Of a stretch of 64,000 bases of DNA, positions 2,462-62,197 are shown one piece after another. Each line of letters begins with the position of its first letter. Position 1 is the first letter of the stretch. The stretch comes from a virus: IMG/VR virus record IMGVR_UViG_3300005253_000051, positions 17,506 to 81,505 of that record. One strand, given 5' to 3'. A model generated the notes under the pieces. The model was not told the origin of the DNA, did not search any database, and saw only the letters and a list, made by a program, of their open reading frames with translations. Both the position numbers and the translations under genes were made by a program.

Positions 2462-2467
2462 CCCGCC

Positions 2468-3438: not shown

Positions 3439-3455
3439 GGAAGTCCTCCATTTCA

Positions 3456-3935: not shown

Positions 3936-4486
3936 CTGTGGACGCTACGCCTTCGGGAATATTCAAGCAGCTGCCGGGCTAGATCCTCATCGCCGGCCAC
4001 GACGGCTGCGCCCGCGGCAGCGCGTAGTTCTTCGTCTAAATCTCGACCACGGCTGAGATCTCGGATGACCCAGCGTGCAAAGGCGATCTGAATCTCACTG
4101 GAATCGACACCAGCGTGAGAAGCGTCGGCGGCGGCGTAGGTGACATAGGCGGCAGCGGAGTCGTCGGTATAGGGGGAGTTGGTAGCGTGAGCGGCGGCCC
4201 AAGCGGTAGCACTGGCGACGCGAGCAGCGTCGGCGGCGGCATAGGCGGCAGTGGCGGCATAGGCGGCGCGGGTGGCGCGGGCGGCAGCGCGAGGGGCGCC
4301 GCGAGCGGCGGCGCTAGCAGCGGCACTATCTATTTGCTTCTTGTTCGCATAGCGCTCCGCAATCTTGATTGCAGCTATGACAGCAGATTGTTGATCGCCG
4401 TTATAAAACGGCAGCGCCAGACGCGCGCATTCAACTGCGAATCCAACTGCATTGCGGAGATTACTCCATTTCCGATCGTATTTCAC
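3932..4486 (-). CDS. Alanine-rich paralogue family protein (copy 5), GTG start
   Basis: About 184 residues. The GTG at 4486 is preferred because it aligns with the family N terminus (KYDRKWSNLRNAVGFA), overlaps the upstream stop as GTGA and follows GGCGGAG; an ATG at 4516 is also in frame. Family C-terminal block AFARWVIRDLSRGRDLDEEL and AVVAGDEDLARQLL. The long Ala-rich centre includes AAYVTYAAADA. Ends YSRRRSVHR, a basic extension absent from other copies. Function unknown. Confidence 0.75.
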   Translation of the reverse strand: MKYDRKWSNLRNAVGFAVECARLALPFYNGDQQSAVIAAIKIAERYANKKQIDSAAASAAARGAPRAAARATRAAYAATAAYAAADAARVASATAWAAAHATNSPYTDDSAAAYVTYAAADASHAGVDSSEIQIAFARWVIRDLSRGRDLDEELRAAAGAAVVAGDEDLARQLLEYSRRRSVHR

Positions 4487-4695
4487 GCACTCCGCCCCCA
4501 CGCCAATTCGTTGCACCGAATTTCATCTTTACAACGAGGACAGAAAACAACTTTCCACATGATATCCGGGGTCTCTCGGTCGTACACCGTGCGTATATCA
4601 GAAGGCTCGTATTCTGCAAGCACGAGACAGTTGCGGCACCGCGCACGCGCTACGACATTCACCTTATTCGGATCTTCTATGATTTTAGCCATCAC
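4483..4695 (-). CDS. Small zinc-ribbon protein
   Basis: 70 residues with CRNC and, some 30 residues later, CPRC (KVVFCPRCKDEI), a typical two-knuckle zinc ribbon. Coupled to the next gene by GTGA and to the previous one by ATGA. Likely binds zinc; partner unknown. Confidence 0.6.
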   Translation of the reverse strand: MMAKIIEDPNKVNVVARARCRNCLVLAEYEPSDIRTVYDRETPDIMWKVVFCPRCKDEIRCNELAWGRSA

Positions 4696-8317: not shown

Positions 8318-8367
8318 TTTTTGAGACTTACCACAAAAAGGCTAGAAATTCAACTGTGCCACTCGCG

Positions 8368-9835
8368 GTCGCATCTTGAAAGGCGATGCGCTGCCATTGC
8401 TAGTTCGTCGAGAACTGCGACGAGCCCGTCGCATCTTGAAAGGCGATGCGCTGCCATTGCTACGTCGCGTGCCACGCGCCAGGAGACGAGTTGGTGTGCC
8501 GTCGCATCTTGAAAGGCGATGCGCTGCCATTGCTACCTTCCTCTCGGCCGCGGGGTCGCATCTTGAAAGGCGATGCGCTGCCATTGCTACAGCACGACCA
8601 ACGTCGTTGGTTACGGCACCGACGTGTCGCATCTTGAAAGGCGATGCACTGCCATTGCTACCGCGAGCCATCGGTAAACAGTCGCTCGGCTCACTCCGTC
8701 GCATCTTGAAAGGCGATGCGCTGCCATTGCTACGTGGCCGACGCGGCGAAGATCCTGGGCGTATCCACGTCGCATCTTGAAAGGCGATGCGCTGCCATTG
8801 CTACCTCCTCGATGTAGTCGCATTCGACGACCGAGCACGAAAGGTCGCATCTTGAAAGGCGATGCGCTGCCATTGCTACTAGACGGACCGTCTTCGAGTA
8901 CCCGTGATCCAGTCCGTCGCACCTTGAAAGGCGATGCGCTGCCATTGCTACCCGCGCTGGGATCAATTCCGTGAGGAGATCAGACTCGACGTCGCATCTT
9001 GAAAGGCGATGCGCTGCCATTGCTACAAACCAGCGGCGGCGTTCGCGTTCGCTCCCTCCCCCAGTCGCATCTTGTAAGGCGATGCGCTGCCATTGCTACG
9101 CACCAACAGCGCGACGACTGCGCAGAATGACTGGGAGTCGCATCTTGTAAGGCGATGCGCTGCCATTGCTACAGCATATCCATGGAGGAGCACCCCGAGC
9201 TATCAGCCAAGGTCGCATCTTAAAAGGCGATGCGCTGCCATTGCTACGGATGCGGTGCGTACGGCGATTGCGTGAGACAAAGTGAGTCGCATCTTAAAAG
9301 GCGATGCGCTGCCATTGCTACCGAGCTGGGCGACGGCGAACAGAAAACAATTCTGGTCGTCGCATCTTAAAAGGCGATGCGCTGCCATTGCTACATGCGG
9401 CGCACGCCGGTGAGAACAATGCTTCCGCGACGTCGCATCTTAAAAGGCGATGCGCTGCCATTGCTACAGGCAACCTGGCCCCTAGTGGAGTGGACAATTC
9501 GACTGGTCGCATCTTAAAAGGCGATGCGCTGCCATTGCTACACGATGACATTTTTGCGTGCCCATTCATCTGGTGCGACGTCGCATCTTAAAAGGCGATG
9601 CGCTGCCATTGCTACGGATCGGTGCTCTAGCAATCAGCCCACGCTCTTTCGCGTCGCATCTTAAAAGGCGATGCGCTGCCATTGCTACCGTGAAGCCTAC
9701 TGGCGACAGAGCTATCCGGGCACCGTGTCGCATCTTAAAAGGCGATGCGCTGCCATTGCTACAGCCCTACGTAAACGTGTCGATCTGCGTTGATCTCGCG
9801 TCGCATCTTGAAAGGCGATGCGCTGCCATTGCTAC
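8368..9835 (-). CRISPR. Type V CRISPR array, 21 repeats and 20 spacers
   Basis: Repeats are 36 bp, starting at 8368, 8428, 8501, 8555, 8626, 8698, 8769, 8844, 8916, 8991, 9064, 9137, 9212, 9286, 9359, 9432, 9506, 9580, 9653, 9727 and 9800. Spacers are 35-39 nt, except 24 nt (8404-8427) and 18 nt (8537-8554) at the left end. Each repeat holds a 6-bp stem CGCATC/GATGCG. Loop variants cluster: repeats 1-10 and 21 TTGAAAGG, 11-12 TTGTAAGG, 13-20 TTAAAAGG. The two stem variants (repeats 5 and 9) become G-U wobbles only in minus-strand RNA, and that orientation puts the hairpin at the repeat 3' end as in type V crRNAs. The left terminal repeat has a changed last base. The right terminal repeat contains the effector stop codon, so there is no separate leader; the array is probably read through from the effector. 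Confidence 0.97.
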
Positions 9836-11367
9836 GGCGCCTCTGGATCTTTGTGTTTTTTCGCAAACCTAGGCGTGCTTTTTCGAGTGGTTGGGTTACG
9901 GACGTTTCCGATCGCATACATATTCATCATGTTTTGCGTGCTTACGCGGTCACGATCTTCTACGACACCACAGCCCCCACACGTCACCACGCGCTCGGGC
10001 CCGTAGCTGTTGACGAAGCTGCAAGCCGGGCAATGGTTGGTCGTATCGACCGCACAGACGACGGAAACACCCGTGATGCGGCCAAACACGCGCGTGATCT
10101 CTTCAATCACCTCGCCGGGCGCGGCATGATGACCCTGGCGTCGAGCCGGCTTCGGAAGGCTCGTTTTGTTTTCCTTCATCTTCTTGTGGCAGGAATCCTT
10201 GATGACCGCATGCGCGTAGCGTCGGCGTAGATCACGCAGCCAGACGCGCACGTCGTTGCGCCGCCGGGTGACCGACCGGTTACGACACCCTGCTTCGTAC
10301 TGCCACAAGTGCCGCTCCTTCTTGATCCACTTGGTGTGCTCTCCTGGTTTTGCGACACGTCGAACGCTCAGTGTCGATTTCAGTCGTGCGAAAAGTTTTT
10401 TGTTCGAGAATCCGCAAACGGCCAAAATGACGCTCCAAAAACGCTCTTGTTTTTGTAACTCCACAAGGTTCTGATCACGCGCTGATCGTATCCGATCAGC
10501 TTGATCAGCATGCTTCATCCATTTAGGAGGGAGCACCAACTCGTACTCGGCACCGTCGTCACCACGCGCGTAAGCGATGCGCATGCCGTCGTCGGTCTTA
10601 CGCCAACCGACATCGATAGCGACAGCGCCTCGCTCGGCGTTGTCTTTGCGCTCGGGGATATCGCGGCGCGTGAACTGCACAGACCAGATGACACGATCTG
10701 CGACGTACTTGCGGGCGATCTTGACCCACGTGGCCGTACCTTGAAGGGGACGATGCATCTCGAAAGGTAGTGGCTCGGCCCACACAGGCGCTTGGCCTTT
10801 GGATCCCACACGAAGACGGAGCGTGTAGCGCTGTTGCTTTTTCTTACGAGGATCCGGCGCCGACTTGATCAAGAACATCCGGTCTGGATCCTTGTCGCGC
10901 TGGATTTGGACCGCACACATATCACCCTGGCGCCAGCTGCGGAATTTCACCAGCGAGAAAGATTCAGTCTCTTTCCAAGCCGCCGAAAAGTCTTGTTCGA
11001 TCACAAGATAGGTGCCCCAGTATAGGCCACCTTCGGCCGCTTTCTTGCGGAACGGCTTCACGTCAAGAGGAGGCTCAGAACGGTACTGCTTGCGCAGTGC
11101 CTTGTAATGAGCGCGGCAAACCGGACAGAATTTCTTGCACTCGTGCTTTCGTGGTTTGCGTTTCTTGCTTTCCGCTTTATCACAGGTCGAACAAGATTTT
11201 TTGCACACGTGTGTTGCCGGTGAAGGGGGACGATCCCCGCCCCACATAGTCGTGCGCCTCTCGTTCTCCGCTTCGACGAGACTGTTGTAGTAGACACGGC
11301 CCAGGTTCATTTGGGCACACAAGGTGTCCCCACCGGGGAGTGCTCCGTACTTGTAGACTTTGGTCAT
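9832..11367 (-). CDS. Miniature type V effector, Cas12m (V-U1)-like
   Basis: 511 residues. The N terminus (VYKYGALPG...NSLVEAENERR) resembles Cas12m proteins. Residues 53-84 carry two CX3CX2C clusters (C55, C59, C62; C77, C81, C84), an unusual N-terminal zinc-type insert. RuvC-I is AVAIDVGW (Asp252). At the expected RuvC-II site the sequence is HAVIKDSCH, with Lys390-Asp391 where Glu is normal. Zinc ribbon CPAC...CGGC (446-466) and RuvC-III EDRDRVSTQN (Asp473). Adjacent to a 21-repeat array whose last repeat supplies the TAG stop. No cas1, cas2 or cas4 in the locus. It should bind crRNA and target DNA; the missing Glu suggests binding-only interference, as known for Cas12m, or altered cleavage. 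A TnpB-derived relative outside named subtypes is possible. Confidence 0.85.
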   Translation of the reverse strand: MTKVYKYGALPGGDTLCAQMNLGRVYYNSLVEAENERRTTMWGGDRPPSPATHVCKKSCSTCDKAESKKRKPRKHECKKFCPVCRAHYKALRKQYRSEPPLDVKPFRKKAAEGGLYWGTYLVIEQDFSAAWKETESFSLVKFRSWRQGDMCAVQIQRDKDPDRMFLIKSAPDPRKKKQQRYTLRLRVGSKGQAPVWAEPLPFEMHRPLQGTATWVKIARKYVADRVIWSVQFTRRDIPERKDNAERGAVAIDVGWRKTDDGMRIAYARGDDGAEYELVLPPKWMKHADQADRIRSARDQNLVELQKQERFWSVILAVCGFSNKKLFARLKSTLSVRRVAKPGEHTKWIKKERHLWQYEAGCRNRSVTRRRNDVRVWLRDLRRRYAHAVIKDSCHKKMKENKTSLPKPARRQGHHAAPGEVIEEITRVFGRITGVSVVCAVDTTNHCPACSFVNSYGPERVVTCGGCGVVEDRDRVSTQNMMNMYAIGNVRNPTTRKSTPRFAKKHKDPEAP

Positions 11368-16355: not shown

Positions 16356-17623
16356 CAGCTCCCAATCTCGATGACCCGGGCGCCCTCCGGCACGCTAGCC
16401 CCGTCATAGCCCACGAGCGCCACGACTTTTTGACGAGCACTCGATGGCCACGGAGGCCACACCAAGCCGCCGTCGGTGAGGTGAATCATCACGTCGAAGC
16501 GACCCGCGGCGGCGACCTTCCGGTAAGCGTCTTCGGCGCACGTGCCGCCGCGCCCTCTGAGCGTCTTTTTGATCTCAGCGGGATGGCACTTCGGTGAAAG
16601 CCAGCCCTCCCACTGAACGCCATGATCGTGGGTCACGAGGTAGACCGAGACCCCCGAAGCCTGCGAGATCTTCATCGTCTCAGCGACGAACTGGGACAAC
16701 TCTTCATCCGAAACCGAGCCCGAAGTGTCGATCACGACTGCGGCGCGCGCCGCTGTCGCGTGCCAGCCCGGAAACTGCGCCCCGCGTGCTCGTGAGCGAC
16801 GCCCGCGGCGCGTCCAGGTCTGCGAGTCCCGACCGTGGACCGCGAGCGCAGAAGCCATCCCACGACGCACCACAGCGGCCCAGTTGACGCGAGCTGGCGG
16901 AATGTCGCATATGGTCGCCAGCGCCGCACCCGCGGCGTCGCCGGCTTTGCGCGCCATGGCCTGGGCCTGCGCCGCGATCTTGGACCACTCTTGATCGAGT
17001 TGCGTTTCGCTTTTGGGCTCTTCGCCGTCCTCAGAACCCTCGGGGGGCATGACACCACAGCCGGCGCCGGGGGTAAGGCCGTCGCCGCTCATGGATACCG
17101 AAGGCTTGTCCTGTAAATTCTGAACGATCTGATCGTATATCCGCTCAGCGTGCCAAGTTTCCCACCCGGACTCAGGAAAAATTGCGCCTTTGGAATAACT
17201 CTTGAGCCCCGAGGTCACCAGTGCGTGGTTGATCGCCATGTCCCCGGCGATGTTCCAGACCGAGATCGGCTTTGCGTCAGGATTTGGTTTTCCATCTGGA
17301 AGAGTAGGAGGATACGGTTTCCCATCGGGACCGACGGGGATAACCATCACGGTCCGATTGCCTTGCCGCGCCGCGTGGCGCATTAAAAGATGCATCAGCT
17401 CGTGCGCAATCACCCACTTGAACTGGGCATCGCTGAGTTTTTTGCAAAATGGCGTGTGCAAATAGATGATCCCGTCGGCGGTGACGCCCATGGTATTGAC
17501 CTTGAAACCCACCGCGTCCTCACGAAATCGGACCTTAGCTGCGGGAATCGCGAAAAACGGGGAGTACCAACCCAGGGCGATCGATAGGCGCTTGGCTTTT
17601 TCGACGATTTTGCTCATGGTCAT
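16352..17623 (-). CDS. VWA-like protein with N-terminal metallopeptidase domain
   Basis: 423 residues. The N-terminal domain holds HELMH at 74-78 (VIAHELMHLLMRH), the zinc site of putative metallopeptidases, and DMAINHAL. A Pro/Gly/Glu linker follows, then a VWA-like domain with the MIDAS-type DTSGS (AVVIDTSGSVSDEEL) and THDHG. This is the DUF2201-type VWA/metallopeptidase architecture, which usually pairs with a MoxR AAA+ ATPase; such an ATPase is encoded 2.1 kb upstream (19754-20842). Together they may act as a chaperone or remodelling pair, perhaps in virion or DNA-protein assembly. The target is unknown. Confidence 0.85.
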   Translation of the reverse strand: MTMSKIVEKAKRLSIALGWYSPFFAIPAAKVRFREDAVGFKVNTMGVTADGIIYLHTPFCKKLSDAQFKWVIAHELMHLLMRHAARQGNRTVMVIPVGPDGKPYPPTLPDGKPNPDAKPISVWNIAGDMAINHALVTSGLKSYSKGAIFPESGWETWHAERIYDQIVQNLQDKPSVSMSGDGLTPGAGCGVMPPEGSEDGEEPKSETQLDQEWSKIAAQAQAMARKAGDAAGAALATICDIPPARVNWAAVVRRGMASALAVHGRDSQTWTRRGRRSRARGAQFPGWHATAARAAVVIDTSGSVSDEELSQFVAETMKISQASGVSVYLVTHDHGVQWEGWLSPKCHPAEIKKTLRGRGGTCAEDAYRKVAAAGRFDVMIHLTDGGLVWPPWPSSARQKVVALVGYDGASVPEGARVIEIGSC

Positions 17624-17674: not shown

Positions 17675-17893
17675 ATGGCGCAGAAGAAAATTGTAGTAGA
17701 TGGTATGCGGCTATGGTTCAACAAGGACACCTGCACAGTAAACCCTGTCAAACCTACTCAGGGTAAATGGGCGTTGCTATTCAAAAAAGCGGCGGCGCGC
17801 GGTGGAAAATTTGAGTTGAAATTTGCTGGACTAGAAACAATGGGACACGCAGATGTTGTACTTCGATCTACCGAGTGCAAACGACTTCGATGA
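17675..17893 (+). CDS. Isolated plus-strand small protein, 72 aa
   Basis: One of two possible plus-strand genes in the left 44 kb. MAQKKIVVDGMRLWFNKDTC, then KPTQGKWALLFKKAAARGG and ADVVLRSTECKRLR. The base composition is lower in GC than its neighbours. It overlaps the 3' end of the minus-strand gene at 17868 by 26 bp. The ribosome site is weak (CTGAAGC). Possibly a recently acquired gene. Confidence 0.5.
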   Translation: MAQKKIVVDGMRLWFNKDTCTVNPVKPTQGKWALLFKKAAARGGKFELKFAGLETMGHADVVLRSTECKRLR

Positions 17894-18416
17894 GCTGGCG
17901 AGCCAGATCTTCATCGCCGGCCACGATTGCCGCGCCTGCGGCCTGGCGCAGCTCTTCGTCTAGATCTCGGCCACAACTGAGATCTCGAACTACCCAGCGA
18001 GCAAAAGCGATCTGAATCTCGCTGGAATCGACACCGGCGTCATCGGCGCCGCGGGCGGCATCGGCGGCGTCGGCAGAAGCATCAGCGGCAGCATCAGAAT
18101 CGTAGTTGACGACGTTGGCGGCACCGTAAGCAGCGTAGGCGGCGACGGAAGCAACGGCGGCAGCGGCGATAGTGGCCCAGGCGGAATGAGGGGTCGGGTA
18201 GGGGCCGGCAGGGGCAGCAGAAACAGCGGCTCCAGCTACACGATGAGCATCGGTATCATCTATTTGCTCACCGTTCGCATAACATTCTGCAATCTCGATC
18301 GCAGCTACGAGATTAGATCGTTGATCGCCGTCGTAAAACGGCAGCGCTAGACGCGCACACGCGGCGGCGAACCCAACCGCATTGCACCGGTTGTTCCAAT
18401 CTCGTTCGTAGTTCAT
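17868..18416 (-). CDS. Alanine-rich paralogue family protein (copy 8)
   Basis: 182 residues. NAVGFAAACARLALPFYDGD and AIEIAECYANGEQIDD at the N terminus; AGVDSSEIQIAFARWVVRDL and AGAAIVAGDEDLARQLIE at the C terminus. The Ala-rich centre is interrupted by GPYPTPHSAWAT. Closest in layout to copy 9. Function unknown. Confidence 0.75.
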   Translation of the reverse strand: MNYERDWNNRCNAVGFAAACARLALPFYDGDQRSNLVAAIEIAECYANGEQIDDTDAHRVAGAAVSAAPAGPYPTPHSAWATIAAAAVASVAAYAAYGAANVVNYDSDAAADASADAADAARGADDAGVDSSEIQIAFARWVVRDLSCGRDLDEELRQAAGAAIVAGDEDLARQLIEVVCTR

Positions 18417-18421
18417 GCAAT

Positions 18422-18616
18422 CTATTCAGCCGTTAATGCACGAACCGGACACCCGTTCTCGTGGTAGCCACTGTGAAGCGTGCAACCACACCATTGACAT
18501 CGCGGTCGCCCAAACGCTCTAATCTGTTCTTCACTAAATTCCCTCTGCCATTCATAAAGATGTTCCGACGAACAAAAAAACTGGGGCGGCGTACATTCAC
18601 GACAGTACGAACTCAT
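18422..18616 (-). CDS. Small multi-cysteine zinc protein, 64 aa
   Basis: CREC, FCSSEHLYEW, CQWCGC and a final NGCPVRAL place at least six cysteines and two histidines for one or two zinc sites. The FCSSEHLYEW block is like a zinc finger of the FCSxxC/H-W type seen in small phage proteins. Partner unknown. It lies between two alanine-rich family genes and overlaps the next by 4 bp. Confidence 0.6.
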   Translation of the reverse strand: MSSYCRECTPPQFFCSSEHLYEWQREFSEEQIRAFGRPRCQWCGCTLHSGYHENGCPVRALTAE

Positions 18617-19179
18617 GTTATTCCTTTGACGAGCTGGCGAGCTAGATCTTCATCACCAGCCACGATTGCTGCGCCCGCGGCTTGACGCAGCTCTTCGTCA
18701 AGATCTTGATCATCGCCGCTGAGATCTCGGACGACCCAGCGCGCGCAGGCCACTTGAATCTCGCTGTTGCAGACGCCAGCACGACCAGCGTGATTGGCAG
18801 CAGCGGCGGCGTAGTGGACGATGCGAGCGGCAGGGGCATAGCGAGCGATGCGAGCGGCAGCGACGTCGGCGGAGACGGCGTAGTAAGCGGGGGTAGCGTA
18901 GACGGCGATGGCGGCGTCTGCGGCGGCGGCGGCACAAGCGGCAACAGCAACGTCGGCGTCGGTGTCGGCATCGTAAACAACATCCTGTGCAGCGTTGGCG
19001 GCTTTGAGCGAGGCGGCGGCAACGCTAAGGGCACCGTTCACACAGCATTCTGCAATCTCGATCGCAACTACGAGATCTGATCGTCGATCACCGCTGTAAA
19101 ACGGCAGCGCCAACCGCGCGCATTCCGCAGCAAATCCAACCGCGTTGTGGGGGTTGCCCCATTCCCGTTCGTAGTTCAT
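18613..19179 (-). CDS. Alanine-rich paralogue family protein (copy 9)
   Basis: 188 residues. NAVGFAAECARLALPFYSGD, AIEIAECCVNG, then the longest Ala-rich centre (ACAAAAADAAIAVYATPAYY), and the C-terminal RWVVRDLSGDDQDLDEELRQ plus AGDEDLARQLVKG. The pair with copy 8 suggests a local duplication separated by the zinc protein. Function unknown. Confidence 0.75.
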   Translation of the reverse strand: MNYEREWGNPHNAVGFAAECARLALPFYSGDRRSDLVVAIEIAECCVNGALSVAAASLKAANAAQDVVYDADTDADVAVAACAAAAADAAIAVYATPAYYAVSADVAAARIARYAPAARIVHYAAAAANHAGRAGVCNSEIQVACARWVVRDLSGDDQDLDEELRQAAGAAIVAGDEDLARQLVKGIT

Positions 19180-24830: not shown

Positions 24831-25583
24831 CTAGAAGAGACTGTGAATGGCAAATTCTGGGTTAAGACCTTGGGGAATCACGGTGCTAGAAGCATTGTTG
24901 GTGAATGCAAACACCTCCAGAAAATCTCCAGCAGTTAGATCGAAATCGCTAGCAAACTCTGTGGTGACGTCAAACCCAACGGTTCCTGTCAAAGTTTCCG
25001 TGGCTTCTACAAGGATTCCGTTGATGGCAATCGTAAGCCTCTGCGTGTGATTGGCAATGGGAGCAACTGTCCCGTACTTGGCGGTAACAGCATACCGACC
25101 GGGGCTAGCGATCACGAAACGACTGAGTGGAAGATTTACGATTCCACCGAAATCGTATTCGAGCGTATTGAACAAGAGCTTCGTATCAGGAAAACCCGCA
25201 GGGATTGCTTGCGTGACCGTATTCCGCATCTTCCCTGCAGCAGTTGCCTCTCCTGCCGACGAAACCCCTTGATTGAGGATGAATGGCTGCGGGACCAAGG
25301 AGCCATCTGGTTGAGCGCCAGGTTGAGGCTGAGTCGATCCGAACTCACGGCGAATCGTGTGCCACGAGCTAGCCCAAACATCGACCGCATCAGGAGACTC
25401 GTCGGCTAGACGCGTGACCGTGATGTCGATGTCGTCTGCCGTAACTTGGAAGCCACCTTCGTTCGGCGCCACAATATCAGGGACGAGGTTTCGCGGAGGG
25501 TTGACCAGTCCATGAGGAAGAGAAACCGGAACACCAACAACTAGGCCGGTGAACTGGACGATGCTTTCGATTTTGATTCCCAT
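24831..25583 (-). CDS. Virion-type protein with C1q-like C-terminal domain (paralogue A)
   Basis: 250 residues. N-terminal base domain (VQFTGLVVGVPVSLPHGLV; PDIVAPNEGGFQVT; VDVWASSWHTIRREFGS; QPDGSLVPQPFILNQG) and a C-terminal domain with LSRFVIASPGRYAVTAKYG and LTAGDFLEVFAFTNN, a pattern resembling C1q/TNF-like jelly rolls. One of three tandem copies; the divergent C-terminal tips suggest receptor-binding or decoration diversity. Confidence 0.65.
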   Translation of the reverse strand: MGIKIESIVQFTGLVVGVPVSLPHGLVNPPRNLVPDIVAPNEGGFQVTADDIDITVTRLADESPDAVDVWASSWHTIRREFGSTQPQPGAQPDGSLVPQPFILNQGVSSAGEATAAGKMRNTVTQAIPAGFPDTKLLFNTLEYDFGGIVNLPLSRFVIASPGRYAVTAKYGTVAPIANHTQRLTIAINGILVEATETLTGTVGFDVTTEFASDFDLTAGDFLEVFAFTNNASSTVIPQGLNPEFAIHSLF

Positions 25584-25594
25584 AGTCCTGAACC

Positions 25595-26344
25595 CTAGAA
25601 GTTGCTGTGGATGGCGAACACAGGCTCGCGGCCGTTTGCAATCAGTGTACTAGCGCCGGCAGACAAGAATGCAAATACCTCCAGGAAATCTCCAGCGACT
25701 AGATTGAAGTCGCTAGCGAATACTGGAGTGATTCCGAACGCGATTGATGCTGTCAATTCTTCTACAGTCTCCACAAAAATCCCGTTGATGGCAATCGTAA
25801 GTTGCTGCGTGAAAGCAGCACCGGGGGCAGTCGTCGCATACTTGGATGTAACGGTATACCGACCAGGTTCAGTGATCACGAAACGATCAAGTCCGATGTT
25901 TACGATTCCACCGAAATCGTAATCGATCGAGTCAAACGCGACCTTTGTGTTTACCCCTGCGGGGATTGCTTGAATAACAAGCGCTCGTATCTTTGCGGTA
26001 ACAGCTGCCTCCCCTGATTCCGAAACCCCTTGGTTGATGATGAACGGCTGTGGAACCAGCGAACCATCCGGCTGAATACCGGGCTGAGGCTGAGTCGATC
26101 CGAACTCGCGGCGGATCGTGTGCCACGAGCTAGCCCAAACATCGACCGAATCAGGAGACTCGTCGGCTAGGCGCGTAACCGTAATGTTGGTGTCATCGGC
26201 AGTGACCAGGAAGCCGCCTTCGTTTGGCGCCACAACATCAGGGACGAGCTTTCGCGGAGGGTTGACCAGCCCGTGGGGAAGAGAGACCGGATCATCAACA
26301 ATGAGATCGATGAACTGGACGATTGCTTCGATTTTGATTCCCAT
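25595..26344 (-). CDS. Virion-type protein with C1q-like C-terminal domain (paralogue B)
   Basis: 249 residues, same two-domain layout as its neighbours: PDVVAPNEGGFLVTADDTN, VDVWASSWHTIRREFGS, then LDRFVITEPGRYTVTSKYA and LVAGDFLEVFAFLSA. Overall very close to A and C, with substitutions concentrated in the C-terminal half. Tandem duplication is evident. Confidence 0.65.
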   Translation of the reverse strand: MGIKIEAIVQFIDLIVDDPVSLPHGLVNPPRKLVPDVVAPNEGGFLVTADDTNITVTRLADESPDSVDVWASSWHTIRREFGSTQPQPGIQPDGSLVPQPFIINQGVSESGEAAVTAKIRALVIQAIPAGVNTKVAFDSIDYDFGGIVNIGLDRFVITEPGRYTVTSKYATTAPGAAFTQQLTIAINGIFVETVEELTASIAFGITPVFASDFNLVAGDFLEVFAFLSAGASTLIANGREPVFAIHSNF

Positions 26345-26359
26345 AGTCCGAACCCAACC

Positions 26360-27106
26360 CTAGAAGTTGCTATGAACAGCGAACATAGATTCACGAAGAC
26401 CCGTGAGTGTGGAGGCGCCAGTGTTGAGTAGAGCAAACACCTCCAAGAAATCTCCAACGGCTAAATCGAAGTCGCTAGCGAATACTACGGTAACTCCCCG
26501 GCCAGCGATTGATGTAAGAGTTTGAGTAGCCTTTACGAGAATCCCGTTGATGGCAATCGAAAGCCTTTGCACGTGGTTGGCACCAACAGATTGTGTGCCG
26601 TACCTAGCTTCGACGCTGTATCGACCAGCGGTAACGATCACGAATCGATCGAGCCCGATGTTTACGATTCCACCGAAATCGTAATCGGTCACATCGAATG
26701 TGAGTTTCGTGTCTGCCGCCGCTGGAAGCACTTGAGCGACAGAAGCTGTAATCTTCCCGGAGACGGCCGCCTCTGCCGCTTGTGAAACCCCTTGGTTGAT
26801 CACGAATGGCTGCGGAACCAGTGAACCATCTGGCTGGATACCGGGCTGGGGTTGAGTCGATCCGAACTCGCGCCGCATTGTGTGCCACGAGCTGGCCCAG
26901 ACATCGACCGCATCAGGAGAATCGTCGGCAAGACGCGTGACTGTGATGTCGATGTCGTCTGCGGTAACTTGGAAACCGCCTTCGTTCGGCACCAAAAGGT
27001 CGGGGACAAGATTTCGCGGAGGGTTGACCAACCCGTGGGGAAGAGCGACCGGCACGCCAACAGCTAGATTGGTGAACTGGACGATGCTTTCGATTTTAAT
27101 TCCCAT
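26360..27106 (-). CDS. Virion-type protein with C1q-like C-terminal domain (paralogue C)
   Basis: 248 residues; first gene of the leftward virion block. NLAVGVPVALPHGLVNPPRN, PDLLVPNEGGFQVT, VDVWASSWHTMRREFGS, then LDRFVIVTAGRYSVEARYG and LAVGDFLEVFALLNTG. A 107-bp gap upstream likely holds the promoter; 9-bp inverted repeats ATAACTCTA/TAGAGTTAT lie near the two ends of that gap. Confidence 0.65.
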   Translation of the reverse strand: MGIKIESIVQFTNLAVGVPVALPHGLVNPPRNLVPDLLVPNEGGFQVTADDIDITVTRLADDSPDAVDVWASSWHTMRREFGSTQPQPGIQPDGSLVPQPFVINQGVSQAAEAAVSGKITASVAQVLPAAADTKLTFDVTDYDFGGIVNIGLDRFVIVTAGRYSVEARYGTQSVGANHVQRLSIAINGILVKATQTLTSIAGRGVTVVFASDFDLAVGDFLEVFALLNTGASTLTGLRESMFAVHSNF

Positions 27107-27213: not shown

Positions 27214-28026
27214 TCATAACGTTGTCGTGATGATCACGCACGGAGCATCCCCACGGCCGGCGGGGTCTGAGTTGATCGCGCGCTTTTCGCCCGTAAGTTC
27301 CAAGTGAGCCCACTCGCTGTAGAGATACTGGATCAACTCGGTGTTCGCGTTGTGCGCGATCACTGCGACGCCGCGCTCATGGGCTAGGAAAAGCTCTTCG
27401 GCGAGTCGAGTCTGATCGTCGTCGGAGAACCCCGAGGCGACGTAGTTTACATAGCCGCCATGGTAGGGGGGATCTATGTAGAGCAAGTCGCCGCACTTCG
27501 CCGCGTGGATCGGCTCGACAAAATCTAGTGCTACCAGCGTCGTGCCTTGGAGTACAGTGGCTACTTCCTGGAGGTGTTCGAGGTTCGGAAAAAGCCCCGC
27601 GTCGCGCCGATTCGGATCGCCAAAGGGCACGTTGAATCCCCCGCTTTTGTTCTCGCGGTGCAACCCGTTGAAGCCGGTTTTGTTCAGATAGATAAACCGC
27701 GCTGCACGCTCGATCGAACACGTTGGATCTTGCTCACGGATCCAGCAGTAGTAGTCCTTGGTGATGCAGTTGCCCAGCATATCCAGCATCGTCCTAAGCC
27801 GCTCGCACGGTACATCCCGAACGACGCGGTAGAGGTTCATCAGGTCGTCACAGGCGTCGCTGAGGAACATCTGAGGACGCGCTACAGCCAGCGCCATCGC
27901 GCCGCCGCCGACGAACGGCTCGATATACCGGCCGCCGGTCTTGTCGAGCAACGTTGAGATGCGCGAGCTGAGAACGGGGACAGCCCATGCTTTCCCGCCC
28001 GCCCACTTGAGTAGGGGCTTAGTCAA
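27214..28026 (-). CDS. dam: Dam-type DNA adenine methyltransferase
   Basis: 270 residues, class D12/Dam family. FxGxG-type SAM motif as LLKWAGGKAWAVPVL and EPFVGGGAMALAV; catalytic DPPY as LLYIDPPYHGGYVNYV. Family members methylate N6 of adenine, usually in GATC, which would shield phage DNA or time replication. It overlaps the HNH gene by 8 bp. Target site not determinable here. Confidence 0.9.
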   Translation of the reverse strand: MTKPLLKWAGGKAWAVPVLSSRISTLLDKTGGRYIEPFVGGGAMALAVARPQMFLSDACDDLMNLYRVVRDVPCERLRTMLDMLGNCITKDYYCWIREQDPTCSIERAARFIYLNKTGFNGLHRENKSGGFNVPFGDPNRRDAGLFPNLEHLQEVATVLQGTTLVALDFVEPIHAAKCGDLLYIDPPYHGGYVNYVASGFSDDDQTRLAEELFLAHERGVAVIAHNANTELIQYLYSEWAHLELTGEKRAINSDPAGRGDAPCVIITTTL

Positions 28027-28657
28027 GATGTGCCCAACTAATGCCGTTTACGATCCTACTGATTTGTGATCTAGAAACACCGTATTTTTTGGAAAGCGCT
28101 TTCTTGGTCATTGAGTCTTTGGCGTACGCTTTACGAATCATTTTTACTTGGTACTCGTTCAGCTTTTCTCCTGGTTTTGGAATACCTTTATTCTGAAATG
28201 TATTCTGTCCCCAACGAACACCATTTACGATTTTCCTGATCTGCCCTTGGGACACACCATAATTTTCAGCTAGTGCCTTAGCCGTCACTGAACTTTCAGC
28301 GTATGCTTTACGAATCGCCGTTACTTGGTCCCTGCTCAGCTTTTGTGCTGGTATGCCTTTCTTCTGAAAGACATTCCTGCCCTTGTTCCACATGTCGCGG
28401 CTATTATCAGCAGCCGTTCCTAACCACAGGTGATCAGGCCGGACACAGATAGGATTATCGCAGTGATGACATACCATCAGCCCTTCGGGGATTTCCCCGT
28501 AAACTAATTCCCACGACACACGGTGTGCTCTACGTGATGACCATGGCCCTGAACGAACTTGACCGTAGTCGCCCCGAGTCTTAGAGCCAGTCCACAGCCA
28601 GCACTCCCCCGACTTGTCTACCTTGACCCAGAACCGATCAGCTAATGCCCTAGTCAT
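28019..28657 (-). CDS. HNH endonuclease with two HTH repeats
   Basis: 212 residues. N-terminal HNH of the phage/intron type (ECWLWTG; RAHRVSWELVYGEIPEGL; VCHHCDNPICVRPDHLWLG) followed by two copies of a ~50-residue helix-turn-helix unit (VTAIRKAYAESSVTAKALAE and VKMIRKAYAKDSMTKKALSK, each ending in a YGVS...QIRKIVNG-like turn). This is the layout of free-standing homing endonucleases with NUMOD-like DNA-recognition modules. AT-richer than its neighbours, consistent with acquisition. Confidence 0.85.
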   Translation of the reverse strand: MTRALADRFWVKVDKSGECWLWTGSKTRGDYGQVRSGPWSSRRAHRVSWELVYGEIPEGLMVCHHCDNPICVRPDHLWLGTAADNSRDMWNKGRNVFQKKGIPAQKLSRDQVTAIRKAYAESSVTAKALAENYGVSQGQIRKIVNGVRWGQNTFQNKGIPKPGEKLNEYQVKMIRKAYAKDSMTKKALSKKYGVSRSQISRIVNGISWAHLD

Positions 28658-28781
28658 TTTTCATCACCGGGAAAACACACCTGGTGAGCCTATCGACTTT
28701 TCTCTCTAGTGACAGCACGCGCCACACGAACATGCTCACCCACATAGACAACCCCACCACCACAAACTCGATGCCTGTCAT
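28650..28781 (-). CDS. 43-aa single-span membrane peptide
   Basis: IEFVVVGLSMWVSMFVWRVL forms one membrane helix at the N terminus, followed by a basic tail (ERKVDRLTRC). It begins two bases after the stop of the RiPP-like peptide gene and overlaps the HNH start by 8 bp. It might help export or act with the RiPP-like peptide; that link is positional only. Confidence 0.5.
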   Translation of the reverse strand: MTGIEFVVVGLSMWVSMFVWRVLSLERKVDRLTRCVFPVMKND

Positions 28782-28783
28782 GG

Positions 28784-28981
28784 TCAACACAGTTTCGGAA
28801 AGGCGCTCGTGCATCCCAGATTGGGATCAGAGCAAGGGCCACAGAACGTGAAGCGGTAGCAAGTAGCCTTGAGGGAACAGATAACAGACCACAGAGTGAG
28901 CACGCCGCCAGCTCGAACATGATCGAGTTGACGGACGGTGAGCCTGGACAACTTGAGCTTAGATCGTTGTTTACGTTTCAT
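28784..28981 (-). CDS. RiPP-precursor-like peptide A (double-glycine leader, Cys-rich core)
   Basis: 65 residues. Leader-like half: KLKLSRLTVRQLDHVRAGG, with the K-L-x-L-x-x-L-T-V...L...GG pattern of class I lanthipeptide-type natural-product precursors. Core-like half: TLWSVICS, TCYRFTFCGPCSDPNLGC and a 7-residue extension ending in Cys. The five core cysteines have the same spacing (5, 5, 2, 6) as in the homologue at 49775-49948. No LanB, LanC, radical SAM or cyclodehydratase gene is in the window. Alternatives: a small zinc-binding protein with a basic N terminus. Confidence 0.6.
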   Translation of the reverse strand: MKRKQRSKLKLSRLTVRQLDHVRAGGVLTLWSVICSLKATCYRFTFCGPCSDPNLGCTSAFPKLC

Positions 28982-29323
28982 CTACTCCCCTCCGATAATC
29001 GCGGTGTAGATCTCGCCGTTCACTACGGAGCCGATGCTCTGCGACGCCTTCGCCAGTTCACTTAGAACCTTTTCGAGCAGAGCTATCTCGCTTCTTCCGG
29101 CCATTCCTTGTGTTGCTATCGCGCCGCTGCTGCCCTGAATCGCGAGCATCGAGATCGCGTCGGCCGACGACTTCACCATCTCCTTGATCTGGCGAAGCGT
29201 CGCGATCTTTTCCATGATCTCGCTCTGAGCTTTTGCCATCGTCGCCGCTGCCCCGAGCACTTCCTTCTGAATCGTGTGCTTCGGAACCATCTGGATCTGT
29301 ACGTTCGCCTGTGCCTGGCTCAT
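28982..29323 (-). CDS. Hypothetical helical protein, 113 aa
   Basis: All-helical: EVLGAAATMAKAQSEIMEK, then EIALLEKVLSELAKASQSIG. No cysteines and no motif. The start lies inside the 3' part of the TSCPD gene frame. Could be a small scaffold or coiled-coil protein. Confidence 0.6.
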   Translation of the reverse strand: MSQAQANVQIQMVPKHTIQKEVLGAAATMAKAQSEIMEKIATLRQIKEMVKSSADAISMLAIQGSSGAIATQGMAGRSEIALLEKVLSELAKASQSIGSVVNGEIYTAIIGGE

Positions 29324-29957: not shown

Positions 29958-30224
29958 TTACTCATGAAACGCTTGCTTGCGATGCGCTTGAGCAGTAGCA
30001 ATAGCTTCTAACCAAACCTCGTTGTTGGACACGGGTACCCAAAGAATGCCTTCATCTGTTTCGACTTTGAAATGCACTTCTGCATTTTGGGTAACTGTAG
30101 CCAGGTCGGTATCGTTTTCTTCATAGGCTTCATGAAGCAAAACCCGAACAGGAAGACCTTCCCGAAGAGCGCCCGACCAAAGCAAGTACCTACCAGGATT
30201 CATATGGCTCAAAACGTGATGCAT
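29958..30224 (-). CDS. Hypothetical protein, 88 aa
   Basis: MHHVLSHMNPGRYLLWSGAL then a beta-rich region AEVHFKVETDEGILWVPVSN and a helical end. Unknown function. About 70 bp upstream of its start contain no gene. Confidence 0.55.
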   Translation of the reverse strand: MHHVLSHMNPGRYLLWSGALREGLPVRVLLHEAYEENDTDLATVTQNAEVHFKVETDEGILWVPVSNNEVWLEAIATAQAHRKQAFHE

Positions 30225-30295
30225 TAGTTGCTCTTTTCCTTTTCCGACTCCGGCGGCAGCCGCCGCCCCTCAGTGAGTGGTGTACTGCGACGCCT

Positions 30296-47427: not shown

Positions 47428-49269
47428 ATGGCAGCCGTCAAAAAACAAGTCGGGTTTGATCTCGCTAAGTTGGCAAAGCTCCCTGGGCCTTTCCGGCTGT
47501 ATCTAACGCGACAACTTCCCGGTGGTCAAAAAGAACCGATCCCTCTGCCGCAGACTGAGTGGTCGAACCAAGAGGTAATCGACTTCGAGAACACCGTTGT
47601 CACTCGTATTTCAGGCGGCGGCAATTACGCGGCGCAGCTTACGACTCTCGACGGCGGCGACGGTTTTACTTGGGAGTTTGGTTACAGCGAAAAACTGTAT
47701 CCTTCGATGGTGCCCCCCGGACTCCAGTCCGCGTATGTGCCTCCACCTGTGACTGTCCAAGGAGCCCCAGTGGCTACACCTGCTCCGATCCCGTATGGCC
47801 TTCAGATTCAGAATCAGAATCAGCCACTCGCGCAGCCGCAGGCGCATTTCGCGACGCCGATTTCCCAACTCTCGGGTCCAGCATACATGTATCCCCCTGG
47901 GTACGGACAACCCATTCCACAGTACCCGTATCCGAGTCCCTATCAGCCACCGCGGCAGGCGGCGGACTCGAAAGAGGACGCGCTGAAAAAGGAACTGGAA
48001 CAGATCAGGCTTGCGAATCAGCAAGCGGAGCACCGACGCGAACGAGAGTCTGATGCAGCGCGTCATACCGCTCAAATGACTTCGTTGCGAGAGGAGATCC
48101 GCCGCGCTTCTGAAGCAGTGAAGCAACCGGCTGGCGAGTCGCCGGAGTTGGTCGCACTCAAGAGCCAGAACGCGATGCTTCAAAAGCAGATTGAAGCTCA
48201 GGCACAGGCCCAGCGCGATATGATGACCAAGATAGAGCGGCAACAAGCCGAGTCACGGGATCAGACGGCGCGAGATGTCGCGCAGCGGCAACACGAAGAG
48301 CGCATGCGCCAGATGGAGGAAAACAGCCGCCGTGAGATGCAGGGTCTCAAGGATCAGATGGCGCTGGTACAGGCCAATAATGGCAAACAAGATCCGATGC
48401 TCCCCTTTCTCATGGAATCGCAGAGGCAGGCTGCCGATGTAGCGCGCGAGCAGGCGCGCACCGCAGCCAGTGCGCCTCAGCAGCTCATGAGCATCGTCGA
48501 AGGTGTGCGGCGTAGCTCCGGTGCTGATCAGATCATGACGAACCTCGCGGGTGCTTACGACTCCGTGAACAACATGGTGATGCGCAACGCCGAGATGATG
48601 GGCAACTTCATGGCGCAGAGCCAAGGTTCACCCGTGATGGGGCTTATCGGCGATGCTTTGCATTCCGGCAAAGAAGTGCTAGCCCAGATGGTGACGGCGA
48701 AGTCGAAATCAGAAGAAGCACGGGCTCAGGCCGACGCCGCCCGCGATCAGCAGACTGCCGCGATTGAATACGCACGGGCTAACGCCGCCGCAGCGGCAGC
48801 GGCCCAGAGCAAGGGTAATGGCGTACCTGAAGAGGATCAGGTCATTCAGGCGACTGAGGCGCGACAGGAAGCAGAAGTCGAGGCGGAACAAGCCAATCAA
48901 GAGGTAGCGAATCTAGAGCCGAAGCTTTTCGGCTCTCTGCTCTGGCCCGAGATTGAAAAACTCCGGCAGTGGATTGCCAAGGAAGGGATCGAAAATGTTG
49001 ATCCCCGTGGCATCGTAGTCATGTTGATCCAGGCAGCTGGAAAGATGAAGGAGAATGGGCTCGACGCCCCCGTCCTCTACTTGTTTGAAAATCAGCAGTG
49101 GGCCGAACTGTTCGATCGTGTCATTCCTGATGTGACCGCTGAATTTGCCAGCGAGTGCGTCAAGATCATGTCTGAGATTAGCACTCGGCTTGCGACAGTG
49201 ACCAAGCCCGAAGAAATTGAGGAGATCCTTCGAGGACCCTCCAAAACCCCGGAACAGACAGCGAACTAG
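47428..49269 (+). CDS. Large coiled-coil protein, 613 aa
   Basis: Short folded N-terminal domain (RLYLTRQLPGGQKEPIPLPQ; ISGGGNYAAQLTTLDGG), a Pro/Gln/Tyr-rich segment (SPYQPPRQ), a long charged coiled coil (~180-330), and a helical C-terminal domain with two Ala-rich stretches (ANAAAAAAAQSKGN). No known motif. It opens the rightward transcript. Could be a scaffold, partition or virion-assembly protein. Confidence 0.65.
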   Translation: MAAVKKQVGFDLAKLAKLPGPFRLYLTRQLPGGQKEPIPLPQTEWSNQEVIDFENTVVTRISGGGNYAAQLTTLDGGDGFTWEFGYSEKLYPSMVPPGLQSAYVPPPVTVQGAPVATPAPIPYGLQIQNQNQPLAQPQAHFATPISQLSGPAYMYPPGYGQPIPQYPYPSPYQPPRQAADSKEDALKKELEQIRLANQQAEHRRERESDAARHTAQMTSLREEIRRASEAVKQPAGESPELVALKSQNAMLQKQIEAQAQAQRDMMTKIERQQAESRDQTARDVAQRQHEERMRQMEENSRREMQGLKDQMALVQANNGKQDPMLPFLMESQRQAADVAREQARTAASAPQQLMSIVEGVRRSSGADQIMTNLAGAYDSVNNMVMRNAEMMGNFMAQSQGSPVMGLIGDALHSGKEVLAQMVTAKSKSEEARAQADAARDQQTAAIEYARANAAAAAAAQSKGNGVPEEDQVIQATEARQEAEVEAEQANQEVANLEPKLFGSLLWPEIEKLRQWIAKEGIENVDPRGIVVMLIQAAGKMKENGLDAPVLYLFENQQWAELFDRVIPDVTAEFASECVKIMSEISTRLATVTKPEEIEEILRGPSKTPEQTAN

Positions 49270-49587
49270 ATGAACTTTTTGCAGGTCATCTACTTCTATC
49301 AGACCGGGTGTCCCGCTTGTGAAGAGATACGCCCCTTGTTGGACAAGGCCGTGGCGCACTACGCGCAATGTGGCGTCGTGGTTCGCTACGTGGACGTGCA
49401 CCACGAAGGGCTTACTGCCGACACGATGCAGGTCCAGGAAACGCCCACGGTCATCGGCACACGCAACCATTCGCCGGTCACTCGCATGATCGGCGCCCAG
49501 AACGCAGATCAACGACTCGGACAGTTATTCACTGAACTACTCAGCGGCGGCTCGTGCGCGGTCCAGCCATGGCGGGGAGACGTGTAG
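49270..49587 (+). CDS. Thioredoxin-like protein
   Basis: 105 residues; IYFYQTGCPACEEIRPLLDK holds the CPAC redox site after a beta strand, and cis-Pro appears in QETPTVIG, as in thioredoxin folds. Likely a thiol-disulfide oxidoreductase or host-redox interactor. Relevant given the many Cys-rich virus proteins. Starts at the stop of the coiled-coil gene. Confidence 0.8.
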   Translation: MNFLQVIYFYQTGCPACEEIRPLLDKAVAHYAQCGVVVRYVDVHHEGLTADTMQVQETPTVIGTRNHSPVTRMIGAQNADQRLGQLFTELLSGGSCAVQPWRGDV

Positions 49588-49589: not shown

Positions 49590-49778
49590 ATGGTCAAGAA
49601 GGTAGAGATCAAAATCGAGCTTGATGGGGGATCGATCTCGATCGACTGCGAGAATCCCAAGGTTATTTTTTCTGCCTGGGATTCAGAATATTTGGGACGT
49701 ATTGTTTTCTCTTTGGTACAGGAGATACAAAGGCACAAAGAGAACGCCGAGGCAAAATCTCGGTCGGAGCGCCGATGA
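49590..49778 (+). CDS. Hypothetical protein, 62 aa
   Basis: MVKKVEIKIELDGGSISIDC, then IVFSLVQEIQRHKENAEAK. ATG at 49590 follows GGGGAGA. Coupled by ATGA to the RiPP-like gene. Function unknown. Confidence 0.55.
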   Translation: MVKKVEIKIELDGGSISIDCENPKVIFSAWDSEYLGRIVFSLVQEIQRHKENAEAKSRSERR

Positions 49779-49948
49779 AACGCAAACGCAAACTCAAACT
49801 GTCTAGACTCACCGTTCGTCAACTCGATCGTGTTCGAGCCGGCGGCGGCAGCTTCATCACGCTGTGGTCTGTCATTTGTTCGGGGGGGCGTACTTGCTAC
49901 CGCTTCACCTGGTGTGGCCCTTGTTCTGATCCCGCTCTTGGGTGTTGA
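49775..49948 (+). CDS. RiPP-precursor-like peptide B (double-glycine leader, Cys-rich core)
   Basis: 57 residues, too short for routine gene finding. KLKLSRLTVRQLDRVRAGGG leader, then TLWSVICS and TCYRFTWCGPCSDPALGC. Shares most residues with peptide A (28784-28981), with the same cysteine spacing; nucleotide differences are largely at third codon positions, which suggests selection on the protein. ATGA overlap with the upstream gene. No modification enzyme nearby; host enzymes or a different role would be needed. Confidence 0.6.
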   Translation: MKRKRKLKLSRLTVRQLDRVRAGGGSFITLWSVICSGGRTCYRFTWCGPCSDPALGC

Positions 49949-54267: not shown

Positions 54268-55229
54268 GACCCATGGTCACGACCATGACGCTGCCTACGG
54301 GCGTGGTGGTAAAGGTCGAATCACCTAACGCTGTTGTCCGGGGCACGTTCACAGCTTTCGGCAAAACTATTATCAACCCAACGCTCTTTGTTCCATTTTT
54401 GCGTCTTACAGGCGCGATGGAAGAAGGCACCGCGGATCGACAAGAATGGGATCACACCTGGGATCGAACGATCATCAAACGCAACGAAGCGTGTGTGACC
54501 GGCAATGATCAACGCTGTCGAACGTACGAGGTAATACTCGACGGTCTCACCAAAGGCGTGATCCCGTTTGCTCGTTTCACGAATATGTCGGATGGCCGAT
54601 GGTGGGGGAAGTTTTACGATGCGAGCGTTGACACAGTGACGGTTCGACCGTCTCCGACAGAAAAACTCATCAACCTGATCAGCACTTCATCGTCGGCAAC
54701 ATTTCAGGGTGTACTCGGTGACGTTGGCAGTTGGATCTCAGATACGGTGTCGGACATCGGAAGCGCCATCGTCGAGTTTGCAAACCAGGCATGGGATATT
54801 CTTGAAGACGGCATTGAAGCCGCTTGGGAATTTCTCAAAGACGTGCTGGCAGCGCTCCTGGATATCTGCGATCGACTCAAAAAGTACTTGCCGCCGGGGG
54901 AGAAAAAGGACGTTGCTCTCGCTGCGTTGTCGGTGGTGGCGCCTGGCGTTGGATCGACAGTGGCCGGCGCTATCGCGTTGGCCGAGAAGATTTGCAACGC
55001 AATCGCGGTGATTGCGTTTGCTACGCAAGGGCCATTGCCTCCACCCCCGCTGAATCCTCAAGGACGCCAAGATGCTGAAGATGAGGACAAATTCATCAGG
55101 ATGGTTTCGGTAGTGATGGAGGTTAGGCCGCCCGTCGAACCTGAGCCTGAGCGGGTGGTGTATCCTCCAGGGAGTTTCAGCGTCTACAATCCGTACACTC
55201 AGCGTTATCACATCTTGGTAGATCTATGA
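54264..55229 (+). CDS. Hypothetical virion protein, 321 aa, with FSVYNP tail
   Basis: N-terminal beta domain (~1-130, LPTGVVVKVESPNAVVRG), amphipathic helices (WDILEDGIEAAWEFLKDVLA), a hydrophobic stretch and Pro-rich linker, ending GSFSVYNPYTQRYHILVDL. Possibly a membrane-active entry protein. GTG/ATG coupling: its start overlaps the previous stop by 4 bp. Confidence 0.6.
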   Translation: MRPMVTTMTLPTGVVVKVESPNAVVRGTFTAFGKTIINPTLFVPFLRLTGAMEEGTADRQEWDHTWDRTIIKRNEACVTGNDQRCRTYEVILDGLTKGVIPFARFTNMSDGRWWGKFYDASVDTVTVRPSPTEKLINLISTSSSATFQGVLGDVGSWISDTVSDIGSAIVEFANQAWDILEDGIEAAWEFLKDVLAALLDICDRLKKYLPPGEKKDVALAALSVVAPGVGSTVAGAIALAEKICNAIAVIAFATQGPLPPPPLNPQGRQDAEDEDKFIRMVSVVMEVRPPVEPEPERVVYPPGSFSVYNPYTQRYHILVDL

Positions 55230-60919: not shown

Positions 60920-61627
60920 ATGGGTTATGTAGGCGTCGCACCAGGTACCACCACCATCACTTTGCCCGATGGCCGCACCGTTGCACTGTCCGACTGGATC
61001 GACGACAAGCTGTACGGCTCGATCCAGCTCGTCAACGGGCAGACCAACGAAGTCATGGCGTTTTCCAACGGCCGCAGCCAGCCGATTCCGAACGGGACGC
61101 GCGTCCAGACCCGCGTGGACACGAATGTGCCCCGCGCTGGCGAAGCGGGTCTTCCGAAGGACTGGGAGATGTACGTGTACGGCTGGGGCATCAAACTCGT
61201 TCGCGCGATGCGTCCGCCGAGCGGTGCTACACAGCCTGTGCTGGCCGACGGCAACGGTGCACTTTCGGATCCGGTCGATCAGCGTACGTACTTCAACCTG
61301 GATCGAGTGATCTTTTTCCAGTACAGGTACAACAACAAGGCGTACACCGATGGTGTCATGCAGGACTACCCACAGGGTGGCGGCCTGAACCTCGTGACGA
61401 CCAACGCCGCTCGCGAGCAGGTCACCAACGGTATTCCCAGCCCGCGCGACCGCGTTGCGCTGGTCATCCCGGTGTACGAGCGTGAGAACCTGGGCTATTC
61501 GGGGATTTTCCAGCCGGAAGCCCCGCTCGGCATCAACCAGCCGCCTTCGGATGGCGACCAGGTACAGTTGACCTTCGTCGATCTGAAACTTTACAAGTGG
61601 GGCCTCATCCGCCGTACCGTCGTCTAG
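60920..61627 (+). CDS. Probable major capsid protein
   Basis: 235 residues. Best ribosome site in the region (GGAGGAATCACA before ATG), beta-rich with balanced composition: WIDDKLYGSIQLVNGQTNEV, DWEMYVYGWGIKLVRAM, RVALVIPVYERENLGYSG, QLTFVDLKLYKWGLI. A stable hairpin follows the gene. The traits suggest a highly expressed jelly-roll capsid subunit. It starts with the GYVGVAPGTTT motif. No HK97 features are seen. The call is inferential. Confidence 0.5.
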   Translation: MGYVGVAPGTTTITLPDGRTVALSDWIDDKLYGSIQLVNGQTNEVMAFSNGRSQPIPNGTRVQTRVDTNVPRAGEAGLPKDWEMYVYGWGIKLVRAMRPPSGATQPVLADGNGALSDPVDQRTYFNLDRVIFFQYRYNNKAYTDGVMQDYPQGGGLNLVTTNAAREQVTNGIPSPRDRVALVIPVYERENLGYSGIFQPEAPLGINQPPSDGDQVQLTFVDLKLYKWGLIRRTVV

Positions 61628-61702: not shown

Positions 61703-62197
61703 ATGGGCATTTTTCCGACGTCATTTGCCGACCAGTCCATCAAGTATCGGATTCCGTATTCGATGCCGGGCGAGTTGATCGTTGATACCGGTCTCACTAA
61801 CGTAGAGTTTCCGGCGGCGGCGTTCCTGCAAAACACAGAGTTGCCGTTTGAAATTCACGCTGTGAAGCTCGTCGCAGCGCAGGATTTGAACGCAGCGGGA
61901 CAGCCGTTTGTTCCGATCGCTGATCCAGCCCCGAGCATTGATCAGTTTTGGCGCGTGCGAATCCGCGACACGAGCAAGATCAACGCTGTGATCACGAAAA
62001 ATGCCCAGCTCGTGGCATCGCTCAAATCCGATCTGAGCGGCTATTGGGAGTGGGATTATCCCTACACGATCGTCAATTCGGAGGGGTTCACGATCTCGGT
62101 GGACAATCTGTTGACGGCACCTGCTCGACTCCGTGCCGCGATTACGTTCATCGGTTACTCGCTGGTTATTCGTCCCCCGAGCCAGACACGCGGATAG
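61703..62197 (+). CDS. Second capsid-like or structural protein, 164 aa
   Basis: YRIPYSMPGELIVDTGLTNV, ELPFEIHAVKLVAAQDLNA, WRVRIRDTSKINAVI, GFTISVDNL. Beta-rich with a single-jelly-roll-like size. Next to the major capsid candidate, so a second capsid or penton-type protein is possible. Confidence 0.5.
   Translation: MGIFPTSFADQSIKYRIPYSMPGELIVDTGLTNVEFPAAAFLQNTELPFEIHAVKLVAAQDLNAAGQPFVPIADPAPSIDQFWRVRIRDTSKINAVITKNAQLVASLKSDLSGYWEWDYPYTIVNSEGFTISVDNLLTAPARLRAAITFIGYSLVIRPPSQTRG

Follow-up and report, generated by a model that had tools for sequence, protein, structure and literature searches.

Several described systems lie close to the two virus genes considered here. Precursors of class I lanthipeptides of the NCBI curated family NF038153 combine a leader motif, K-L-x-L-x-x-x-T-(I/V)-x-x-L, with a Gly-Gly end and a core rich in Cys, Ser and Thr. 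In the prochlorosins, many precursors are served by one promiscuous synthetase (PMC10783134). Phage-encoded bacteriocin gene clusters are described as rare and as found mostly in temperate phages (PMC10452541, which cites Dragos et al. 2021). The substrates of C39 proteases follow a rule by which the leader ends in Gly-Gly, Gly-Ala or Gly-Ser and carries hydrophobic residues at positions -4, -7 and -12 (PMC6363468).

Two copies of a cysteine-rich peptide gene

The window, which is the whole stretch of 64,000 nucleotides that was analysed, contains two peptide genes, A and B, and a search of the whole virus record found these two copies alone. Their parts are as follows.

49775-49948, plus strand: peptide B gene, an intact open reading frame of 57 codons (57 residues, five cysteines) with an ATGA overlap at its start and GGAG just upstream, under codon constraint relative to A
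49775-49846, plus strand: leader of peptide B, 24 residues ending in Ala-Gly-Gly, dN/dS 0.07, resembling the leader of a related virus, G001
49847-49945, plus strand: core of peptide B, cysteine spacing 5, 5, 2, 6, read from the sequence, dN/dS 0.29
28784-28981, minus strand: peptide A gene, an intact open reading frame of 65 codons (65 residues, six cysteines), under codon constraint relative to B
28904-28981, minus strand: leader of peptide A, 26 residues ending in Ala-Gly-Gly, ranked next among 28,740 frames by a leader model from G001 and G005
28787-28903, minus strand: core of peptide A, cysteine spacing as in B, with a C-terminal extension holding a sixth cysteine, from sequence and alignment

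The start ATG of B shares bases with the stop codon of the gene ahead of it, and A begins immediately behind its neighbour's stop. The first-pass annotation had described B as a second copy of the peptide, with the leader and the cysteine spacing in common, and this holds: both frames are intact and 84% identical (46 of 55 aligned codons), both leaders end in Gly-Gly, both cores are rich in Cys, Ser and Thr, and the five shared cysteines are identically spaced. A runs eight residues past the end of B, and its sixth cysteine lies in that extension.

The same annotation had noticed that many codons differ only at third positions and had taken this as a sign of purifying selection, a proposal that now has quantitative backing. 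The two genes differ at 34 bases, distributed over codon positions 1, 2 and 3 as 7, 7 and 20 (binomial P = 0.002), and the NG86 method counts 19 synonymous and 15 non-synonymous changes, giving a dN/dS of 0.18 (Fisher P = 1e-5), a value that comes from one pair and is not near 1. Nine amino-acid changes were observed, against the 21.6 expected from the same number of random changes, and none of 5000 neutral simulations gave a number as low. The 60 bases upstream of A and of B are 30% identical and thus unrelated, so that the reading frame is what has been kept. A and B are diverged duplicates under purifying selection, and the leader is under stronger constraint than the core.

The virus and its relatives

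The record is a virus contig of 81,505 bases with an exact direct terminal repeat of 121 nt and therefore apparently represents a complete circular sequence of 81,384 bases. Its products, identified with Pfam and PHROG, include a family A DNA polymerase, ThyX, a dCMP deaminase, a Dam-type methylase, AAA and VWA-like proteins, a tyrosine integrase, and M23 and SLT cell-wall enzymes, together with many small membrane proteins. Neither Pfam nor PHROGs, the latter run on about half of the virus's proteins, recognised a terminase, portal or tail gene, and the record gave no match to a C39 peptidase, LanC, radical SAM or ABC transporter domain. The linker of a lipoprotein encoded at L003:8302-9144 is Myxococcota-like and may hint at a host from that phylum.

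Other features of the genome are recorded here in their own right. A CRISPR-like array lies at 8358-9843 of the window; its 21 repeats of 36 nt (GTCGCATCTTGAAAGGCGATGCGCTGCCATTGCTAC) are nearly the same and mostly recur every 73 nt or so. It adjoins a gene for 511 residues (9832-11367, minus strand) whose product has a weak match to a Cas12f1-like TNB domain (E 6.6e-4, under the cut-off) and a 25%-identical relative in the related virus G014. A family of Ala-rich proteins ('NYERDW..RNAVGFAAECARLALPFY') has at least ten paralogues (window 844-4516 and 17868-19179, minus strand; L003:8924-10909 and 16480-17079, minus strand), and neither the genome contigs nor the viral ones yielded a relative. 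Three tandem paralogues of about 250 residues (24831-27106, minus strand; 70-81% DNA identity) have partial matches in 10 of the 15 relatives described below. A membrane protein of 79 residues (2688-2927, minus strand) is probably the source of a Pfam match to an NMN transporter (1.1e-5), and single matches to the C-terminal domains of RNA polymerase alpha and of DnaA were seen in another protein set.

The relatives were found with a capsid-like protein encoded at 60920-61627, which detects related viruses in 15 records (39 to 221 kb long; 54-64% identity); a profile scan with the alignment of this protein returned the same 15, while single-sequence scans with the 613-residue gene described below or with the DNA polymerase gave none. 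The capsid-like gene and its neighbour (61703-62197, plus strand) are both kept in all 15, five of which have direct end repeats of 90-127 nt, and the group had no match in the phage records searched. A structural model of the capsid-like protein reached pLDDT 30 from the single sequence and 52, still a low confidence, with 16 sequences, and the latter model matches mainly virus jelly-roll capsid proteins, including that of PRD1, with Z up to 6.9, a score that may reflect just a common arrangement and leaves families absent from the match lists possible. The model is thus suggestive of a capsid protein of the jelly-roll type, and the group, in which no tail or terminase gene was recognised, may be a lineage of large tail-less viruses.

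Leader-bearing peptides in the relatives

Searches of the viral, genome, phage and plasmid collections confirmed no homologue of A or B. The viral contigs, searched with B alone, gave none, the genome contigs likewise gave none, tblastn of phages and plasmids gave nothing better than E 0.5, and the peptide itself is absent from all 15 relatives. Two matches were judged to be due to chance: one on a 4 kb viral contig (L004), inside the span of a tape-measure-like gene, and a weak one in G014 (L022), in a frame opposite a longer open reading frame.

Cysteine-rich peptides with a leader motif of the A/B type are encoded by two of the 15 relatives, G001 and G005, as found by scanning short frames for Gly-Gly leaders. 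The G001 peptide (G001:117006-117248) begins MKKTIKKLTLKTETIKQLNDVQLGQVAGG, continues into a Cys-rich core, has a good ribosome site (AAAGGAG), and passes the NF038153 model with 24.9 bits at a cut-off of 22. The G005 peptide (G005:3382-3606) begins MKKIKATKLTLRAETIKLLTEPALREAAGG, has a six-cysteine core and scores 15.5 bits with the same model, under the cut-off. The leaders of A and B align to that of G001 with scores of 39-40, where shuffled sequences average about 18 and at most 1 in 5000 scores as high. When a model of the G001 and G005 leaders was run over all 28,740 stop-to-stop frames of the 16 records, A came next after the three leader-bearing frames of G001 and G005 themselves; weight is placed on this rank and not on its E-value of 12, which is not significant, and B fell below the list. 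Five occurrences of the motif [KR]L.[LIV]...T[VIL]..L with at least three cysteines behind it were counted, where shuffles would give 0.25; this is to be read as no more than supportive, since the motif was picked after the sequences had been viewed. Behind the same leader motif, the Cys-rich cores are quite different between viruses.

G001 is a record of 221 kb with no end repeats in the part examined. Its peptide gene lies between stretches homologous to the present virus (105.6-108 kb and 161-182 kb) and is therefore probably viral, but a tyrosine recombinase-like gene is found 6 kb away. A scan with the G001 peptide found the peptide itself alone, and tblastn found nothing in phages or plasmids. 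A second possible G001 candidate (54732-54938, minus strand) fits the motif but shares its stretch with other frames and matches no curated model. G005 also has a second leader-like frame (30122-30232, minus strand; MKKIKNTKLSLNTETLKQLKT...) of 36 residues, with neither Gly-Gly nor a Cys-rich core.

Proteins in which a hydrophobic segment lies C-terminal to a C39 peptidase domain are encoded by G001, G014 and G002 (L105, G001:166508-167122; L106, G014:66841-67413; L107, G002:30808-31926), so that certain viruses of this group may come with part of the machinery themselves; this virus does not. In G001, an M23-peptidase-like gene adjoins the C39 gene.

Relation to known peptide classes

Neither A nor B finds a match among the curated leader families, which include the class I lanthipeptide leader L1a (NF038153, cut-off 22 bits) and the TIGR04149-type leader of radical-SAM-modified RiPPs. 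The corresponding enzymes were likewise not detected: the lanthionine cyclase LanC (PF05147) was not found in this record or the 15 relatives, the radical SAM domain PF04055 is absent from all 16 records, and no C39 protease is encoded in this record. In the usual Gly-Gly register, positions -4, -7 and -12 of A and B are Arg, Asp and Thr, residues that C39 proteases reject; one residue earlier, with the cut after Ala-Gly, these positions are V, L and L and fit the rule. Because there is no curated leader match and the C39 rule agrees just with cleavage after Ala-Gly, A and B are not assigned to the class I lanthipeptides; judged from their sequences, they resemble, and probably work like, RiPP precursors. 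The earlier label "RiPP-like" is thus retained in part: the same leader motif occurs in relatives, one of whose peptides is over the NF038153 cut-off, and A is next best in the two-leader model, but no modification or export enzyme was detected in the virus.

Gene neighbourhoods

The genes around B and A are as follows.

47428-49269, plus strand: protein of 613 residues that opens the gene run closed by B, with matches in 13 of the 15 related viruses
49270-49587, plus strand: thioredoxin-fold protein (Pfam PF00085) with CPAC at the active site, encoded two genes ahead of B
49590-49778, plus strand: protein of 62 residues directly upstream of B (ATGA overlap), without Pfam, NCBIfam or significant PHROG match
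28982-29323, minus strand: protein of 113 residues directly upstream of A, without significant match in Pfam, NCBIfam or PHROG
28650-28814, minus strand: putative membrane protein of 54 residues, whose start is overlapped by the 3' end of A over 31 nt, without family match

The genes after the 613-residue gene differ between the related viruses, so B and its two upstream neighbours occupy a variable slot. Just downstream of A, an HNH endonuclease with HTH repeats is encoded (28019-28657, minus strand), and a gene related to it (35% over 85 residues) lies less than 1 kb from the G005 leader peptide, near 4375 (minus strand); as HNH genes are mobile, this may be a coincidence.

Possible roles of A and B

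The explanation towards which we lean, with modest confidence, is that A and B are a constrained duplicate pair of orphan RiPP-type precursors that would be matured by the host into a product acting outside the cell. The virus would supply the precursor alone, with its lanthipeptide-like leader and Cys/Ser/Thr-rich core. Given that enzymes for modification or export were not detected in the virus, the RiPP machinery of a host with a compatible system would modify, cleave and export A and B, and the mature product would take effect beyond the infected or lysogenised cell, with competing bacteria as its likeliest target. It could also act as a signal, in the exclusion of other viruses or as a decoy on a host pathway, effects that the evidence does not separate. 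By analogy, the prochlorosins are a precedent for one promiscuous synthetase that serves many precursors (PMC10783134), and phage-borne bacteriocins are one for the carrier (Dragos et al. 2021, cited in PMC10452541). The points against the explanation are the missing match to any curated leader family, the residues in the Gly-Gly register that C39 proteases reject, the E-value of 12 for A, the absence of B from the list, the failure to detect modification enzymes in the virus and its relatives, the odd number of cysteines in B, and the lack of direct homologues beyond this virus. A broader and rather doubtful extension is that orphan precursors of the lanthipeptide type, in some genomes two of them, belong to a lineage of large, possibly tail-less bacterial viruses with a jelly-roll capsid-like protein (records of 39-221 kb), and that host enzymes would turn them into secreted or decoy peptides while the virus infects the cell or is lysogenic in it.

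A and B could instead be intracellular effectors that bind metal or a host protein and keep the leader-like N-terminus uncleaved, or, in a variant of this proposal, decoys for RiPP enzymes or a transporter. Their N-terminus is very basic, the canonical Gly-Gly register disagrees with the C39 rule and the virus lacks the enzymes, all of which would suit such a role; for a decoy, the leader alone would suffice, and G005 has its second, core-less leader-like frame. On the other hand, no zinc-finger or other family match was found for A or B, Pfam, NCBIfam and PHROG included, and the relatives keep the leader motif with differing Cys-rich cores, as RiPP precursors do, and we consider an intracellular role unlikely.

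A further proposal, which we consider improbable, is that of unmodified, disulfide-bonded double-glycine peptides resembling class II bacteriocins, exported by the host and helped in their redox maturation by the thioredoxin-fold protein. The Gly-Gly leader, the Cys-rich core and the position of the thioredoxin-fold gene agree with it, although the class II leader model TIGR01847 finds nothing in this record at E 10 and five cysteines would leave one unpaired in B. The thioredoxin-like gene had been placed three genes before B, a position corrected here to two, and its product, which passes the PF00085 model (38.7 bits, cut-off 23.5), has not been adopted as a maturation partner for the peptides: it reaches 18.1 bits over 36 residues with the bacteriocin disulfide isomerase model TIGR01295 (PedC/BrcD), far under the cut-off of 120, it has no apparent signal peptide and is apparently cytosolic, its gene is not near A, and one of the 15 relatives has a match to it, weak even there.

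Small structural peptides of the virion or a membrane would fit a virus rich in small genes in packed runs, but no homologue of A or B occurs in the 15 relatives, where the capsid-like gene is conserved, and B stands in a variable slot, so this role is very improbable. That short frames without homologues beyond this virus are chance or decaying, functionless duplicates is hardly credible and, as to a chance origin, contradicted by the codon analysis, given dN/dS 0.18 (Fisher P 1e-5), 0 of 5000 neutral simulations, and intact frames in tight runs.

Comparison with known systems

Returning to A and B as orphan RiPP-type precursors, the closest likeness is to the class I lanthipeptide precursors of NF038153, with which they have the leader motif, the Gly-Gly end and the Cys/Ser/Thr-rich core in common, whereas A and B are about four residues shorter before Gly-Gly, lack a curated match and belong to a virus without synthetase genes. 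Prochlorosin precursors stand apart from their synthetase, as A and B are proposed to do, but they have a long leader of the Nif11 type and a synthetase of the ProcM type, and all of these are encoded by the cell. If the host does mature A and B, the virus would steer a secondary-metabolite pathway of the cell with a substrate alone. In its kin, leaders of one type precede differing cores. As in the phage bacteriocin clusters (Dragos et al. 2021, cited in PMC10452541), a bacteriocin-type peptide is found on a virus genome; there, whole clusters are described, while here precursor-like genes stand alone, duplicated and measurably constrained, in a virus group with no recognised tail genes.
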